A stretch of 23,018 nt of DNA. Origin: a virus. Location of the stretch: positions 1 to 23,018 of IMG/VR virus record IMGVR_UViG_3300019776_000032. One strand, 5' to 3'. Below the pieces are notes generated by a model. The model was not told the DNA's origin. It searched no databases and saw only the letters and a list, made by a program, of their open reading frames with translations. Position 1 is the stretch's first letter. Every line of letters starts with the position of its first letter. A program made the translations under genes and the position numbers. This document shows positions 3,823-9,612 of this stretch, in pieces.

Positions 3823-5370
3823 ATGGGAGCAGCAGCCCGATACTCGGCGCTTCAAACTACGCGCCAACCGTACATTAACCGGGCCAGGAATCAGGCGAAG
3901 GTAACCATCCCTTCCCTGTTTCCCGAGACCGACGATGTAACGACACAGCAGTTGTATACCCCTTACCAAAGTATTGGTGCGCGAGGCGTTAACAACATTT
4001 CAGCCAAGCTGATGCTGACACTGTTCCCGCCCAACACCACCAACTTCAAGCTCTCGGTGGATGACCTCACTCTACAGAAGCTCACTGGCGTCGAGAACGC
4101 TCGTGGTGAAGTGGAGAAGAGTTTGTCTGCCATTGAGAAGAAGGCCCTGTTCACCCTAGAGGGTTCGCAGTTCCGCCCGACACTCAGTGAAGTGATGAAG
4201 CAGTTGGTCGTTGCAGGGAACTCCTGTCTATATTTTCCCGACCCTGCCAAGGCCCGTTACTTCAAGCTGACCAACTATGTGGTCAAACGTGCGCCTGACG
4301 GACGGCTGCTTGAGGCTGTCATCAAGGAAGAGGTAGCTCGCGCTGCCCTGCCCGAAGACGTGGCGAAGATGCTGGAAGCAGCACAGCCCACCTCCAAGCC
4401 CGCACCCTCGGACCTCACACCCCCTGATGCCCGCACGATCCCCTTGTACACCTACATCCAGTTCAAGGACGGGAAGTACCACGTTCATCAGGAAGTGATC
4501 GACCAGGTTATCGAAGGCACAGAGGCCACGTATCCCGAAGACCGTATGCCCTATCTCTTCCTCCGCTTCAACAAGCTGGATGGCGAAGACTATGGGCGTG
4601 GTTACGTCGAGGATTACTACGGTGACCTCTACACCCTAGAGAGCCTGATGGAAGCCATGGTCAGTGGCTCTATCATCATGTCGAAGTTCATCTACCTCGT
4701 TGACCCTGCGGGTACCACTCGCGCGGAAGACCTTGCGAAGGCAGAGAACGGTGCGTTCGTTGAAGGACGGCCCGGTGACATCGCCGTGCTACAGACTGAG
4801 AAGCAAGCCGATCTGAACGTAGTGTTCAAGATGGTGGAATCTATTGAGCAGCGACTGGCGTATGCCTTCTTGCTCAACACCGCCATTCAACGCAACGGTG
4901 AACGGGTGACTGCGGAGGAAATCCGCTACATGGCTCGTGAACTGGAAGACGTTCTCGGGGGTGTGTACTCAGTGCTGTCACAGAGCTTGCAGCTTAGTGT
5001 CGCTCAGATACTTCTCGCCTCACTGGAAGACAGCAAGGATATCCCGAAGCTGCCGAAGGAAGTGAAGCCTATGATCGTGACGGGTGTTGAAGCCCTTGGT
5101 CGCGGTCAGGACCTCGGGAAGTTGAACGAGTTCTTGGCTACATCATCTCAGGTCCTCGGACCTCAAATCGTTACACAGTACATCAATCCAGCGGAATACC
5201 TGAAGCGTGTCGCCGCGTCTCTCTCCATCGACACTGGTGGTCTCATCAAGACCGAGGAAGAGATGCAGCAAGATCAGATGATGGCTATGGCCCAACAGAT
5301 GGGACCGGACGCTATCAAGGCTGGTACGCAACTGGCAACCAAATCTATGGAGCAGCCTACGAATGGCTAA
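3823..5370 (+). CDS. Portal / head-tail connector protein (T7 gp8-like)
   Basis: 515 aa, close to T7 gp8 (536 aa). The dodecameric portal sits at one capsid vertex, nucleates assembly, passes DNA during packaging and anchors the tail. Recognisable T7-connector features are the N-terminal segment with RARNQAKVTIPSLFP, the SAKLMLTLFPP stretch, the region around YGRGYVEDYYGDLYTLE, and the helical RVTAEEIRYMARELEDVLGGVYS. The C-terminus is a flexible Gln/Met-rich tail (MQQDQMMAMAQQM). AAGGA at 3812-3816 precedes the ATG by 6 nt. The stop overlaps the start of the following small ORF by 8 nt (5363-5370). Confidence 0.95.
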   Translation: MGAAARYSALQTTRQPYINRARNQAKVTIPSLFPETDDVTTQQLYTPYQSIGARGVNNISAKLMLTLFPPNTTNFKLSVDDLTLQKLTGVENARGEVEKSLSAIEKKALFTLEGSQFRPTLSEVMKQLVVAGNSCLYFPDPAKARYFKLTNYVVKRAPDGRLLEAVIKEEVARAALPEDVAKMLEAAQPTSKPAPSDLTPPDARTIPLYTYIQFKDGKYHVHQEVIDQVIEGTEATYPEDRMPYLFLRFNKLDGEDYGRGYVEDYYGDLYTLESLMEAMVSGSIIMSKFIYLVDPAGTTRAEDLAKAENGAFVEGRPGDIAVLQTEKQADLNVVFKMVESIEQRLAYAFLLNTAIQRNGERVTAEEIRYMARELEDVLGGVYSVLSQSLQLSVAQILLASLEDSKDIPKLPKEVKPMIVTGVEALGRGQDLGKLNEFLATSSQVLGPQIVTQYINPAEYLKRVAASLSIDTGGLIKTEEEMQQDQMMAMAQQMGPDAIKAGTQLATKSMEQPTNG

Positions 5371-5527
5371 AGAAGACGTGAAGGCCACGGAACCCAAGGT
5401 CGAAGAGCCGAAGGTCGAGGTCCATCCCGAGGGTACGATTGAAATCGGCACCGCACCGGGTGAGTTCCTGATCGCTCACAAGAAGAAGGACGGCAGCGAC
5501 GTAGTCATCAAGGTGACCACGCACTAA
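5363..5527 (+). CDS. 54-aa hypothetical protein between portal and scaffold
   Basis: A short ORF beginning ATG at 5363 (inside the end of the portal gene) and ending TAA at 5525-5527, which overlaps the scaffold ATG as TAATG. GGAG at 5349-5352 lies 10 nt upstream of the start. The protein starts MAKEDVKATEPKVEEPKVEV, containing a short EPKVE repeat, then a beta-like core (GTIEIGTAPGEFLIAHKKK) and ends DVVIKVTTH. It is charged, with no membrane segment. Codon choice matches the neighbours and both junctions are tightly coupled, which supports it as a real gene. No family is recognised; its place suggests a role in head assembly. Confidence 0.72.
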   Translation: MAKEDVKATEPKVEEPKVEVHPEGTIEIGTAPGEFLIAHKKKDGSDVVIKVTTH

Positions 5528-6360
5528 TGACGGCGCAGTCCTTCGCGTTGAAGGCAGAAGTGACGGGGTCTGAACGCCCCGTCGCACCTTCGGCAGAACC
5601 CCCGAAGCCTGACGCCAACGAGCGTCCGCAGTGGCTTGACCAGAAGTTCAAGTCGCCGGAACAGATGGCGGAAAGCTACCGTCACCTAGAAGCAGAGCTT
5701 ACCCGTCTACGGCAGGGTAAGGCACCGGAAGCGGAGCCGAAGCCGGAAGACGTAAAGCCTACGGCAGACGCCGAAGCTACTGGTGAGAAGAAGCCCGACG
5801 ATACCGAGAAGAAGGAAGACGCCGTCGTTGACGACCTCAAGGCCAAGGGCCTCGACGTTGACGCCATGTCTGCCCGCTTCTGGGAGAAGGGAGAGATTGC
5901 ACAGGAGGACCGTACGGTTCTCGTGGATGCACTCAAGGATAAGTTCGGTGACCAAGCCGAGACGCTCCTTGATGCCTTCGCCGTAGCGCAGAAGGAAGCG
6001 TTCGAGTACCGTGAGCTTCGTGTTCACGAGCCACTCGGCGGTAAGGAGAAGTCCGATACCATCCTTGAATGGGCCAAGACCAATCTCCCTCAAGCTCAGA
6101 AGGAAGCCATCAACTCCCTGTGGGAATCGAATGACGTAGCCAAGCAGGTCGAAGGATCGAAGATGGTTGCGATGCTGTACGCCCAGGCGAACGGCTCGAA
6201 GCCCACTCGCGTTCTCGACGGTAGCCCTGCCCCGTCAGTTGAACCGGGCTATGGCTCTCGCACCGAGATGTCCGCTGACATGAGTGACCCTCGCTACAAG
6301 ACGGACCCTGCCTTCCAGCGCAAGGTTCTCGACAAGCTCTCTAGGACCACCGCATTCTAA
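5527..6360 (+). CDS. Capsid assembly scaffolding protein (T7 gp9-like)
   Basis: 277 aa; T7 gp9 is about 300. Scaffolding protein drives capsid shell assembly around the portal and leaves before DNA packaging. The identification rests on position between portal and capsid and on composition: highly charged, Glu/Lys/Pro/Ala-rich and largely helical, with an early WLDQKFKSPEQMAESYRHLE segment typical of T7-like scaffolds. A disordered acidic stretch (about residues 65-98) follows, then helical repeats, with a C-terminal helix (DPAFQRKVLDKLSR) of the kind that binds coat protein in other phages. Start and stop are both in TAATG junctions (5525-5529 and 6358-6362). Confidence 0.88.
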   Translation: MTAQSFALKAEVTGSERPVAPSAEPPKPDANERPQWLDQKFKSPEQMAESYRHLEAELTRLRQGKAPEAEPKPEDVKPTADAEATGEKKPDDTEKKEDAVVDDLKAKGLDVDAMSARFWEKGEIAQEDRTVLVDALKDKFGDQAETLLDAFAVAQKEAFEYRELRVHEPLGGKEKSDTILEWAKTNLPQAQKEAINSLWESNDVAKQVEGSKMVAMLYAQANGSKPTRVLDGSPAPSVEPGYGSRTEMSADMSDPRYKTDPAFQRKVLDKLSRTTAF

Positions 6361-6908
6361 TGGGCAAGTACACGAATGAAATCAAAGTACCCTTCGATGT
6401 AAATCGTGGGATCGGTGGTGCCACCAACGGGATGATGAAGATCTTCCTAGGTGAGCCATCCACCCGATACGGTGTCAACTGTGGCCCTGTCAGGAACAAG
6501 AAGCTAGCTGCTCGAATGGTGACCGCAGATGTCGGTCCATTCAACGTCACTGGCTTTGACCTCGCTGTCCGTTCTCTCAAGGATGTTATGAAGGACATTG
6601 CGAAGGCGTATCCTGACATGAAGCTCTCGACGGCTGGCATGTTGTGCTGCCGTCTGGTGCGTGGCTCGAAGACATCCATCAGCAATCACTCGTGGGGTAC
6701 AGCAGTTGACCTCAAGATTGACGGCGTGTTGGACGAGCGTGGAGACGGCAAGGTTCAGTCCGGTCTCGCACTCATCGCACCGATCTTCAACAAGCACGGC
6801 TGGTACTGGGGCGCTCACTTCAACACCGAAGACGGTATGCACTTTGAAATCGGCATAGACACACTCAAGAAGTGGAGGGCAGCGGGTCTCCTCGCTGGTC
6901 TTCCGTAG
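6360..6908 (+). CDS. M15-family peptidase endolysin (D-Ala-D-Ala carboxypeptidase/endopeptidase type)
   Basis: 182-aa zinc peptidase predicted to cut the peptide part of peptidoglycan at lysis. The M15 (VanY-like) signature is complete: SNHSWGTAVDLKI (108-120) gives H110 and D117 in the HxxGxAxD pattern, and GMHFEI (159-164) gives the third zinc ligand H161, with acidic residues just before it. No signal peptide is seen, so it needs the holin encoded next. Its ATG overlaps the scaffold stop (TAATG). In T7 the lysis amidase is an early gene (3.5); here the endolysin lies between scaffold and capsid. Exact bond specificity cannot be read from sequence. Confidence 0.88.
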   Translation: MGKYTNEIKVPFDVNRGIGGATNGMMKIFLGEPSTRYGVNCGPVRNKKLAARMVTADVGPFNVTGFDLAVRSLKDVMKDIAKAYPDMKLSTAGMLCCRLVRGSKTSISNHSWGTAVDLKIDGVLDERGDGKVQSGLALIAPIFNKHGWYWGAHFNTEDGMHFEIGIDTLKKWRAAGLLAGLP

Positions 6909-6916
6909 GAGTACCA

Positions 6917-7108
6917 ATGAATACGACTTTCAATAAGGCCATCGCTACGTTCCTCACAGCTCTCGTGGGCCTGATCGCAGCGTTCGGCTTCGACAAGTAC
7001 ACCGGAGGGTGGGCCACGCCGTCGAACATCGAACTCGCTTCGTCCGTTCTCGGTGCCATCGCCTCTGCGGCTGTCACCTACTGGGTCCCTAACAAGCCCA
7101 AGGCGTAA
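6917..7108 (+). CDS. Holin
   Basis: 63-aa membrane protein with ATG at 6917, 6 nt after TAGGAG, chosen over upstream in-frame GTG codons inside the endolysin gene. Two hydrophobic segments are visible, about residues 8-25 (AIATFLTALVGLIAAFGF) and 38-57 (ASSVLGAIASAAVTYWV), followed by a short basic C-terminus (NKPKA). Size, two-TM topology and position directly after the endolysin fit a class II holin that permeabilises the inner membrane at lysis. No catalytic residues are expected. Confidence 0.82.
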   Translation: MNTTFNKAIATFLTALVGLIAAFGFDKYTGGWATPSNIELASSVLGAIASAAVTYWVPNKPKA

Positions 7109-7111
7109 GCC

Positions 7112-7363
7112 ATGTCTACTGACACGTTGCTAATCACAGCATTCGTGTTGGTTCTACTGATCGGCGCGGGACTGGGAGCGTTCACATTCTTCCGGTCCCC
7201 GCAGTCGTACATCGCATTCGGCACTATCCTGATCGACAAGCTCAAGCCTGTCATCCTCGCATACATGCTCAAGCGCATGGACCCTAAGGTCGAGGCTGAG
7301 TGGAGGAAGTGCGAACTCCGTGGCGGTAAGTGGGACCACATTAAGAAGAGGTGTTCACGATGA
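7112..7363 (+). CDS. Small single-TM protein of the lysis block
   Basis: 83 aa with an N-terminal transmembrane helix (about residues 5-28, LLITAFVLVLLIGAGLGAF) and a basic, Cys-containing cytoplasmic or periplasmic tail with KRMDPKVEAEWRKCELRGG and WDHIKKRC. It begins 3 nt after the holin stop and ends in an ATGA overlap with the next gene. Position next to endolysin and holin suggests a role in lysis, such as a spanin subunit or holin regulator. It lacks a lipobox and a long coiled coil, so a spanin is not supported directly. Similar short proteins appear in phages of this type without assigned function. Confidence 0.72.
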   Translation: MSTDTLLITAFVLVLLIGAGLGAFTFFRSPQSYIAFGTILIDKLKPVILAYMLKRMDPKVEAEWRKCELRGGKWDHIKKRCSR

Positions 7364-7788
7364 CGACAATCGCCTACCGTGATGGCGTACTTGCCAGTGA
7401 CAGTCTCGTTACCCTTGGCGATACCAAGGTTCACGGCAGCTATCAGAAGATCAAACGTGTAGGCGATTACCTCGTTGGCACCGCTGGCTCCGTCGCGTTC
7501 TGCCAGAAGTTCATCGACTGGATGACCTGTGCTGATGAAGAGGAGCCGCCTCCCGAGGGTGCGTACAGCGCAATCCTCATCGACAAGAACGGAAAGGTCC
7601 GCGAGATTGAGAACGGCAATCTTCTACCCGCTCCTCGTGGTGCCAAGTTCTTTGCTATTGGCAGCGGGGGTCCTCTCGCTATTGCTGCCATGTACGCTGG
7701 TGCATCAGCCGTTGACGCTGTGAAGATCGCAGCGAAGATCGATACCTCCACCGGACTTCCGGTCAAGAAACTCACTCTCAAAGGATAG
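7360..7788 (+). CDS. HslV/proteasome-like Ntn hydrolase
   Basis: 142-aa protein starting at ATG 7360 (ATGA overlap; AGAGG about 9 nt upstream). After Met removal it would begin with Thr, as in HslV. By eye the N-terminus aligns with HslV: T2 for nucleophile Thr1, D14 (ASDS) for Asp17, the VTLGDTKVHG segment for ATLGNTVMKG, K30 (QKIKRV) for Lys33, and GTAGSVAFCQKFIDW for GFAGGTADAF. The later half has GAYSAILIDKNGK and FFAIGSGGPLAIAAMYAG, also typical of the fold. It is shorter than bacterial HslV (about 175 aa), and no HslU ATPase is present here. A peptidase role is likely from family and residues; the substrate is unknown. Its place between scaffold and capsid makes a scaffold-degrading or maturation role conceivable but unproven. 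Confidence 0.82.
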   Translation: MTTIAYRDGVLASDSLVTLGDTKVHGSYQKIKRVGDYLVGTAGSVAFCQKFIDWMTCADEEEPPPEGAYSAILIDKNGKVREIENGNLLPAPRGAKFFAIGSGGPLAIAAMYAGASAVDAVKIAAKIDTSTGLPVKKLTLKG

Positions 7789-7791
7789 TCC

Positions 7792-8373
7792 ATGGCTACT
7801 GTATTAACCAGGTTGAACGGTTCGGATGTCAGCGTTGACGACACCCTCCGCACACCTCTCGTTCCCTTCCCCAAGCAGATCACGCTTCCCTCTCGTGGTC
7901 GTCGGGCGCATGTGTTGCGTCTCGCTACCAATCGCACCCTGACCTCGCAGACCGCCGCACAGTCCCTCTTCGGGCGCTCGTTCATGGCTGAGGCTGGTAA
8001 GAACTACAGCTTCTCAATGCGCGTTACGCTTGAGTCGCTGTCGGCTACGTCCGGTGCATTCTCCCTCCTGTTCGCTGGCTCCGCTACCATCGGCGCTATC
8101 GACTACACTGCCCATGCAATCAAGGCGGCTCTCGCTACGGCTACGGCTGGCACTGTCACCGTCTCGAAGGTGGCAACTGCTGTTGCTCTGGTCGCGGCCA
8201 ACACTGCTACCGCTGGCACTATCACGGTCACTGGCACGTTCCGGTGTACGGCTGATGGTACGTTCATCCCTCAGATCGCCCTCGGTGTAGCTGCGGCTGC
8301 TGTCGTGGACGCTGACTCCACGATGACGATCACTGAAATGCCTACCGACGAAATCGACGGCAACTTCATCTAA
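7792..8373 (+). CDS. Beta-rich hypothetical protein, probable virion component
   Basis: 193 aa, ATG at 7792 about 7 nt after AAGGA. No enzyme motif is seen. Residues about 66-103 (EAGKNYSFSMRVTLESLSA, then FSLLFAG) resemble a domain found in phage fibre or surface proteins. The rest is Ala/Thr/Val-rich with alternating beta-like strands (TATAGTVTVSKVATAVALVA; AGTITVTGTFRC). This composition and its position just before the capsid leader suggest a head decoration or other structural protein. A function cannot be given. It ends 8 nt before a long stem-loop. Confidence 0.6.
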   Translation: MATVLTRLNGSDVSVDDTLRTPLVPFPKQITLPSRGRRAHVLRLATNRTLTSQTAAQSLFGRSFMAEAGKNYSFSMRVTLESLSATSGAFSLLFAGSATIGAIDYTAHAIKAALATATAGTVTVSKVATAVALVAANTATAGTITVTGTFRCTADGTFIPQIALGVAAAAVVDADSTMTITEMPTDEIDGNFI

Positions 8374-8600
8374 GACATACAGACGGGAACTGGCTCTGCG
8401 AAAGCATCCAGCCCGTCTCAGTCCTATCCATTGCGAACATAGTCGCGCTTACGTTCTTACGTGGCGACTTCCAAGGCACTAGCTAGAACCTTGACCCTAT
8501 CCTGAGTAACCGCTGCGGCGGTGAATAGGTGCGGACAATCTTGCCGTTCCAGATGCAGCCGAGGATCACAATCCCTCCTCCCGCAAATGGATACATTCCT
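8374..8600 (+). promoter_or_regulatory. Structured non-coding leader of the major capsid gene
   Basis: A 227-nt gap with no convincing ORF but several hairpins by eye: 8381-8418 (long, GAAA loop), 8441-8469 (AGTCGC with GCGACT, plus inner ACGT/ACGT), 8472-8493 (CAAGG with CCTTG), 8509-8522 (ACCGC-TGCG-GCGGT, a UNCG-type loop) and a weaker element at 8561-8580. None is followed by a T run, so none looks like an intrinsic terminator. This is the largest gap in the window and precedes the gene expected to be the most highly expressed, so it may hold a phage promoter and/or an mRNA processing or stability element. Confidence 0.5.
8381..8418 (+). other. Stem-loop with GNRA-type loop
   Basis: AGACGGG (8381-8387) pairs with CCCGTCT (8412-8418). 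Inside it CTGG (8390-8393) pairs with CCAG (8408-8411), and TGC-GAAA-GCA (8397-8406) forms a capped tip. It begins 8 nt after the stop of the preceding gene and has no following T tract. It could mark an RNA cleavage site or protect a 3' end. Confidence 0.6.
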
Positions 8601-9536
8601 ATGACTGATTTCACTCGTTTGCTGCCGGGTGCAGTAAACAACGCTGGCGACAACCTCGCCCTCTTCCTCAAGCTCGCGGCTGGCGAAGTCCTCACCGCGT
8701 TCAAGAACAAGACCATGTTCGAGCAGTACCACCGTGTACGTAACATCACGGCTGGTAAGTCCGTTTCCTTCCCGGCGACTGGCCGTCTCTCTGCCCGCTA
8801 CGTTACGCCCGGTGTGACCCAGGTTGGTCAGGCCATGAACCACAACGAAGTGACCATCGGCGTTGACGGTGAGCTTCTCGCTGACGCCTTCGTCGCGTCC
8901 ATCGATGAAGCCTTCGCTCACTGGGACGTGCGTGCGCCGATCACTGAGGCCATGGGTGACGCCCTCGCGCAGCAGTTCGACCAGAACGTTGCCCGTAACA
9001 TCATCCGCGCCGCTCGTGGCTCGAACGTTGTGACGGGTGAATCCGGTGGTACCTCTATCACCGCCGCTACCGTTCACACGGACGCCGCTGTTCTCGCCGC
9101 TTCGATCTACTCCGCCGCCCAGGCGCTGGACGAGAAGTTCGTTGAGGATGGCAACCGCCGCCTCGCCCTCCGTCCCGCCCAGTATTACCTCGCTGTTCAG
9201 AAGAACGACCTGATCAACAAGGACTGGGATGGTCGCGGTTCGTACGCTGATGGTACGATCCAGTCTATCGCTGGCATCACCATCCTCAAGTCGAACAACG
9301 TTCCGGGTACCGACGACTCGGCCAACTCCAACATCCCCGCTGCCTATCGTCTGAACTACTCCACCGTGCGTGGCGTGATCTGGACGCCGGATGCTGCGGG
9401 TACCGTCAAGCTGATGGACCTCAAGACCGAGGCCGAGTACCAGATTCGTGAGCGCGGCCACTACATGGTGGCTGCGTATGCGATGGGTCACGGCCCGATC
9501 CGTCCGCAGTGCGCCGTCGAACTCAAGAACGCCTAA
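8601..9536 (+). CDS. Major capsid protein (T7 gp10-like)
   Basis: 311-aa major head protein, with the T7-type HK97-like capsid fold expected from the family; T7 gp10A is about 345. The region after the ATG (MTDFTRLLPGAVNNAGDNLA, then KNKTMFEQYHRVRNITAGKS and the TGRLSARYVTPG loop) follows the T7 capsid pattern, as do ALAQQFDQNVARNI and the late GVIWTPDAAGTVKLMDLKTE. ATG 8601 is preferred over an in-frame GTG at 8529 because the added residues look non-coding and the upstream region is structured. The Shine-Dalgarno is weak (GGA at 8589-8591), surprising for an abundant protein. A strong terminator follows directly. No frameshifted longer form like T7 gp10B is evident. Confidence 0.93.
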   Translation: MTDFTRLLPGAVNNAGDNLALFLKLAAGEVLTAFKNKTMFEQYHRVRNITAGKSVSFPATGRLSARYVTPGVTQVGQAMNHNEVTIGVDGELLADAFVASIDEAFAHWDVRAPITEAMGDALAQQFDQNVARNIIRAARGSNVVTGESGGTSITAATVHTDAAVLAASIYSAAQALDEKFVEDGNRRLALRPAQYYLAVQKNDLINKDWDGRGSYADGTIQSIAGITILKSNNVPGTDDSANSNIPAAYRLNYSTVRGVIWTPDAAGTVKLMDLKTEAEYQIRERGHYMVAAYAMGHGPIRPQCAVELKNA

Positions 9537-9572: not shown

Positions 9573-9612
9573 AGCAGGATTGCTCCCACAAAGAGCAGTC
9601 CTGCTTTTTTCT
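9573..9612 (+). terminator. Rho-independent terminator after the capsid gene
   Basis: A near-perfect 13-bp stem pairs 9573-9585 (AGCAGGATTGCTC) with 9593-9605 (GAGCAGTCCTGCT), including one G-U pair, around a 7-nt loop (CCACAAA), followed by a T-rich tract from 9605. Its position directly after the capsid gene matches the main late terminator (Tphi) of T7. Confidence 0.92.

Follow-up and report, generated by a model that had tools for sequence, protein, structure and literature searches.

Tailed phages and their proteobacterial hosts carry a family of small proteasome-like proteins of about 140 residues, described as PPH by Fuchs et al. (2021; PMC8665760), in which the Thr/Asp/Lys triad is present, helix H2 is missing and a propeptide is absent. 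Another described relative, the betaproteobacterial proteasome homologue BPH (PDB 5ovs/5ovt), forms a double ring of subunits of about 200 residues and has an acidic loop, with no known unfoldase (PMC8665760). A phage HslV gene without HslU had also been noted in pSal-SNUABM-04 (PMC7823757). Our literature search on PPH function or virion presence returned the family description (PMC8665760) and incidental annotations, with no report of activity, oligomer or substrate for any member.

We analysed a PPH gene in the incomplete genome of a T7-like phage (IMG/VR record IMGVR_UViG_3300019776_000032, 23,018 nucleotides; hereafter the window). As far as its sequence tells, the product fits every described feature of this known family: about 140 residues, a tailed-phage gene, the Thr/Asp/Lys triad, no propeptide, no helix H2 in the model and a short C-terminus; nothing sets it apart from other members. 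What is new here is the position of a PPH gene 3' of the lysis cassette in a T7-like phage, together with a survey of PPH positions. The survey makes a prohead protease, the first guess one would make, less likely and favours an accessory role, probably directed at the host. Relatives of the protein were found in 473 phage records (E 1e-3), including laboratory-tractable E. coli K-12 phages such as JenK1, which makes the question testable.

Identity of the gene

The gene under study is the following:

7360–7788, plus strand: PPH-family proteasome-like threonine peptidase, 142 residues (open reading frame, PHROG, homologues, model, Foldseek and profile alignment)

It runs from an ATG at 7360 to a stop at 7786–7788, and an alternative GTG start lies three codons upstream at 7351. 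The ATG matches the conserved start, as relatives begin with (M/V/L)TTIA and have no N-terminal extension. In Brevundimonas phage Kabachok (L085:4001-4420), the conserved start would be a non-ATG codon, read as Ile; the annotated start, at 4028, comes after the conserved TTIA, so that the catalytic Thr is missing from the public annotation.

Among PHROGs, the protein matched phrog_1040, 'peptidase HslV family', over residues 1–141 (E 2e-40). Judging from length, source and features, this PHROG appears to be PPH itself. Matches to the Pfam Proteasome model and to the NCBIfam HslV and proteasome models were weak and under the cut-offs. Curated HslV models gave 23.4 bits against a cut-off of 137 and 21.9 bits against one of 157.75, which places the predicted protein outside HslV proper. 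When the single sequence was compared with solved structures, BPH came first and HslV next, and a profile of 60 sequences matched BPH, HslV and proteasome beta-5 (about 1e-10 to 1e-9). PADLOC found no match between the protein and defence families.

Predicted fold and active site

An AlphaFold2 monomer model of high confidence (pLDDT 92.5, pTM 0.87) had BPH and HslV as its best Foldseek matches (E 4e-10). Together with the PHROG match, this likeness to HslV and the proteasome far exceeds chance. The product is thus predicted to be a proteasome-fold Ntn hydrolase, in agreement with the earlier note, which had called it an HslV-like Ntn hydrolase and had proposed structure prediction as a check. 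Helices in the model are limited to residues 45–57, 104–112 and 117–127. The following residues were assigned to active-site positions:

7363–7365, plus strand: Thr2 codon, predicted nucleophile, on HslV/proteasome Thr1 (HslV profile alignment; 60/60 viral homologues)
7399–7401, plus strand: Asp14 codon, equivalent of HslV Asp17 (profile alignment; 60/60)
7447–7449, plus strand: Lys30 codon, equivalent of HslV Lys33 (profile alignment; 59/60)
7486–7488, plus strand: Gly43 codon, equivalent of the oxyanion-hole Gly47 (alignments and PMC8665760; 53/60)
7663–7665, plus strand: Ser102 codon in the GSGG motif, putative equivalent of proteasome Ser129 (GSG aligns with HslV and BPH; 53/60)
7741–7752, plus strand: Asp128–Thr131 codons, putative equivalents of Asp166 and Ser169 (Asp in 53/56, Thr or Ser in 55/56)

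The triad therefore falls where the earlier note had put it, and its conservation holds among the 60 viral homologues from which these counts were taken. Neither outcome that the earlier note had named as refuting, a structure without the Ntn sandwich or a triad that varies among homologues, was observed. The full conservation of Thr2 is partly built in, one of the search patterns having been 'MTTIAYRD', which covers neither Asp14 nor Lys30. Thr2 also follows the start, and the Asp and Lys are kept, in the 18 homologues that tblastn retrieved from annotated phages. The active site is intact, and the protein is probably an active peptidase.

With HslV the protein shares the MTT start, the Asp17 and Lys33 equivalents, the GSGG motif and the Ntn fold, but identity in the structure match is only about 23%, the scores are far under the HslV cut-offs and helix H2 is missing. 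BPH is both its best structural match and its best sequence match in the PDB. Loop 57–69 is net acidic in 43 of the 60 homologues (0.11 per residue against 0.015 elsewhere), which recalls the acidic loop of BPH. In contrast to BPH, PPH is about 40–60 residues shorter.

An HslU partner was sought in the phage genomes. As the earlier note had stated, no hslU-family match was found in the 23-kb record, which is a fragment or incomplete genome, nor in the 44–46 kb contigs of two relatives, and 15 of the 16 records searched had none; a host HslU is possible, as is an unfoldase gene in a part of this genome outside the record. A phage HslU as partner was also considered in Erwinia phage Caitlin and rejected, as the HslU-like AAA+ protein there is close to an S80-type prohead protease and some 105 kb away from PPH. 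This HslU-annotated protein of 579 residues (L243:4574-7515; NC_031120.1 105573-108514) is encoded two genes upstream of the S80-type head maturation protease, and the product of the intervening gene is likewise similar to this protease family. It is unusual for an AAA+ protein to adjoin a prohead protease.

Gene neighbourhood in the window

The genes around PPH, all on one strand, are as follows:

5527–6360, plus strand: T7-like capsid assembly (scaffold) protein (Pfam PF05396; phrog_1052)
6360–6908, plus strand: M15 D-Ala-D-Ala carboxypeptidase-type endolysin (Pfam PF13539, E 6e-14)
6917–7108, plus strand: holin-like membrane protein, 63 residues (from hydrophobic pattern and place; a longer reading has no family match)
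7112–7363, plus strand: small membrane protein of 83 residues with a hydrophobic N-terminus (homologues 51–54% identical adjoin PPH in contigs L003 and L004)
7792–8373, plus strand: protein of 193 residues, small-residue-rich and beta-rich, 3 bp 3' of PPH (no PHROG match; no Pfam match above cut-off)
8601–9536, plus strand: major capsid protein (PF21703; putative start at 8601)
9573–9605, plus strand: terminator-like hairpin 3' of the capsid gene (consensus scan)

The earlier note had placed the gene between scaffold and capsid. This gene order stands, but the interval is shared by the endolysin, the holin-like gene, the second membrane protein and the 193-residue protein, so that a lysis cassette (the M15 endolysin and two small membrane proteins) sits between scaffold and capsid and PPH follows the cassette. 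The TGA stop of the 83-residue gene overlaps the PPH start codon (ATGA). A promoter scan of the PPH region found none. The capsid frame can also be read from a GTG at 8529; its start is probably the ATG at 8601 (311 residues), because every aligned homologue starts at residue 25 of the longer frame. In contig L009 (L009:1348-2190), a different protein of 280 residues takes the place of the 193-residue protein; as a guess, both might be head decoration proteins.

This layout is shared by Rhizobium phage Pasto, whose endolysin, holin and spanins are annotated, and in other T7-like contigs the scaffold–capsid interval holds cassettes with an amidase or a lysozyme (from sequence, some by Pfam). 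One T7-like contig encodes a photosystem II D1-like protein there (L149:4552-5604), recognised by eye, which we take to be psbA. Its presence is a further sign that the interval takes up accessory genes.

Position of PPH among related phages

The order scaffold, (lysis), PPH, capsid is common to the close clade of the window. The genes immediately 5' of PPH vary: an M15 and a small membrane protein in L003, L004 and L009, a lysozyme with a GTA-type holin in L002, an Rz1-like protein (weak match) in L018, and the scaffold gene directly in L011 and L012. Control contigs were gathered through capsid and portal alignments, independently of PPH (single-sequence scans found nothing). Among the 95 T7-like control contigs that hold a scaffold-to-capsid interval, with PPH-found contigs left out and with some near-duplicates, so that 95 is not a number of lineages, none had PPH in the scaffold–capsid interval, which was shorter than 300 bp in 31 of them.

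Elsewhere PPH has many neighbours. Within T7-like phages it lies between DNA polymerase and exonuclease (G013), downstream of the exonuclease (L016, L019, L026 and L060) or near a terminase-like gene (G007). In several podovirus contigs, among them the LUZ24-like L023 and L032, the order is portal, PPH, scaffold. Lysis genes adjoin it in JenK1, Ent3, Proteus RS51pmB and L054, terminase or portal in phiM5, CcrSC, phiAH14a and several contigs, and NAD or nucleotide metabolism genes in DSS3P8 and phiCbK; in KP13-16 and PD06 it lies in the phoH region. The survey of homologue neighbourhoods proposed by the earlier note thus disclosed varied neighbours and no constant link to the head module. A single clade of all T7-like PPHs was weakly rejected (p-AU 0.039), and one of the scaffold–capsid PPHs was not (p-AU 0.49); L018 groups with L014. 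In our best reading, PPH would be a mobile accessory gene with no phage gene as a constant partner.

Against close relatives, dN of PPH was 0.16–0.19 (0.44 for L011), compared with 0.20 for the endolysin, 0.47–0.50 for the capsid and 0.69–0.81 for the scaffold, all at high or saturated synonymous distance. These values indicate strong selection on the PPH protein though its presence is optional. From the synonymous distances, a recent horizontal exchange of the segment is not apparent, though some room remains for a later exchange.

In Aeromonas phage 4L372XY, two PPH-type genes stand in tandem (L244:70-1466). One PPH in this phage and in the related myoviruses L090, L095, L097 and L098 has a C-terminal extension of about 70–160 residues, and these extended proteins resemble the RPC type of PMC8665760.

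Possible functions

The role suggested by the locus itself is that of a head maturation protease, which during prohead assembly would clear the scaffold or else trim the capsid protein or the 7792–8373 protein; scaffold clearance and capsid processing were also among the options of the earlier note. The constant gene order in the close clade, the place directly 3' of the scaffold gene in L011 and L012, and the podovirus arrangement would all fit. However, PPH is absent from the interval in the control contigs, which have homologous scaffold and capsid, and in other T7-like phages it lies near replication or terminase genes. Capsid length is the same with PPH (311–312 residues) and without it (median 314 aligned residues), and scaffolds are slightly longer where PPH is present (about 245 against about 228). 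Caitlin has a separate S80-type head maturation protease besides PPH. In phiAH14a, virion mass spectrometry covered 92% of the capsid protein and did not report PPH, in tail-less particles with few proteins detected (PMC4936722); the phiM5 record does not flag PPH as a particle protein. We rejected the prohead protease as the main reading after the control survey, and scaffold clearance or capsid processing as put forward earlier now seems unlikely; we keep it at a low probability because podovirus PPHs lie near portal and scaffold. Another possibility is a part in lysis: PPH would act together with the holin, endolysin and spanin genes and might, for instance, set lysis time through degradation of an inhibitor or of an envelope protein. 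This reading draws on the ATGA overlap with a cassette gene, on the different lysis genes preceding PPH in L002, L009 and L018, and on the lysis neighbours in JenK1 and the phages listed with it. Many relatives, however, have PPH beside terminase, portal or metabolic genes, that of L011 has no adjoining lysis gene, and no secretion signal is apparent. The neighbours are too varied for a lysis partner to be the general rule, and we regard this role as rather improbable.

Two further readings start from the protein rather than from its position. PPH might join HslV rings or bind HslU of the host and so poison or redirect it, in keeping with its HslV-like fold and with no phage HslU having been found. 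Helix H2 is part of the HslV face where HslU docks. PPH lacks this helix, both in the family description (PMC8665760) and in our model, its identity to HslV is low, and a pure decoy would not need a conserved active site, all of which makes such interference very unlikely. Equally doubtful is a specific processing enzyme or connectase-like ligase with a narrow substrate instead of a degrader: connectase, a ligase, belongs to the proteasome-like family (PMC8665760), and PPH, being small, may not assemble into rings, but the model lacks the two helices that connectase has inserted between strands 3 and 4, and the closest relatives are BPH and HslV.

We give about even chances to a PPH-family peptidase that acts as an uncapped or BPH-like protease, is carried as a mobile accessory gene, and most probably works on host polypeptides and not on virion parts. 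Its gene in the window, after the lysis cassette, would belong to the late block. Host methionine aminopeptidase would remove Met1 and expose Thr2, which would suffice because PPH has no propeptide. Thr2 would then attack peptide bonds, aided by Asp14, Lys30 and the Ser102/Asp128/Thr131 cluster. The protein may form a compact and perhaps oligomeric core that resembles BPH or an uncapped core particle, a mostly acidic loop taking the place of helix H2. In the cytoplasm, such a core would cut polypeptides that are small or unfolded, without an unfoldase of its own, because no phage unfoldase was found. Host polypeptides are the favoured substrate by exclusion, since none of the phage genes accompanies PPH constantly. 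Host proteins had been the third option of the earlier note, and would be compatible with the evidence.

A bolder form, which we consider a long shot, is a minimal proteasome-type protease without unfoldase and perhaps without the dodecameric double ring of HslV, host-directed and moving between lysis, replication and packaging blocks. If true, this virus-encoded proteolytic system would have a quaternary structure that is new.
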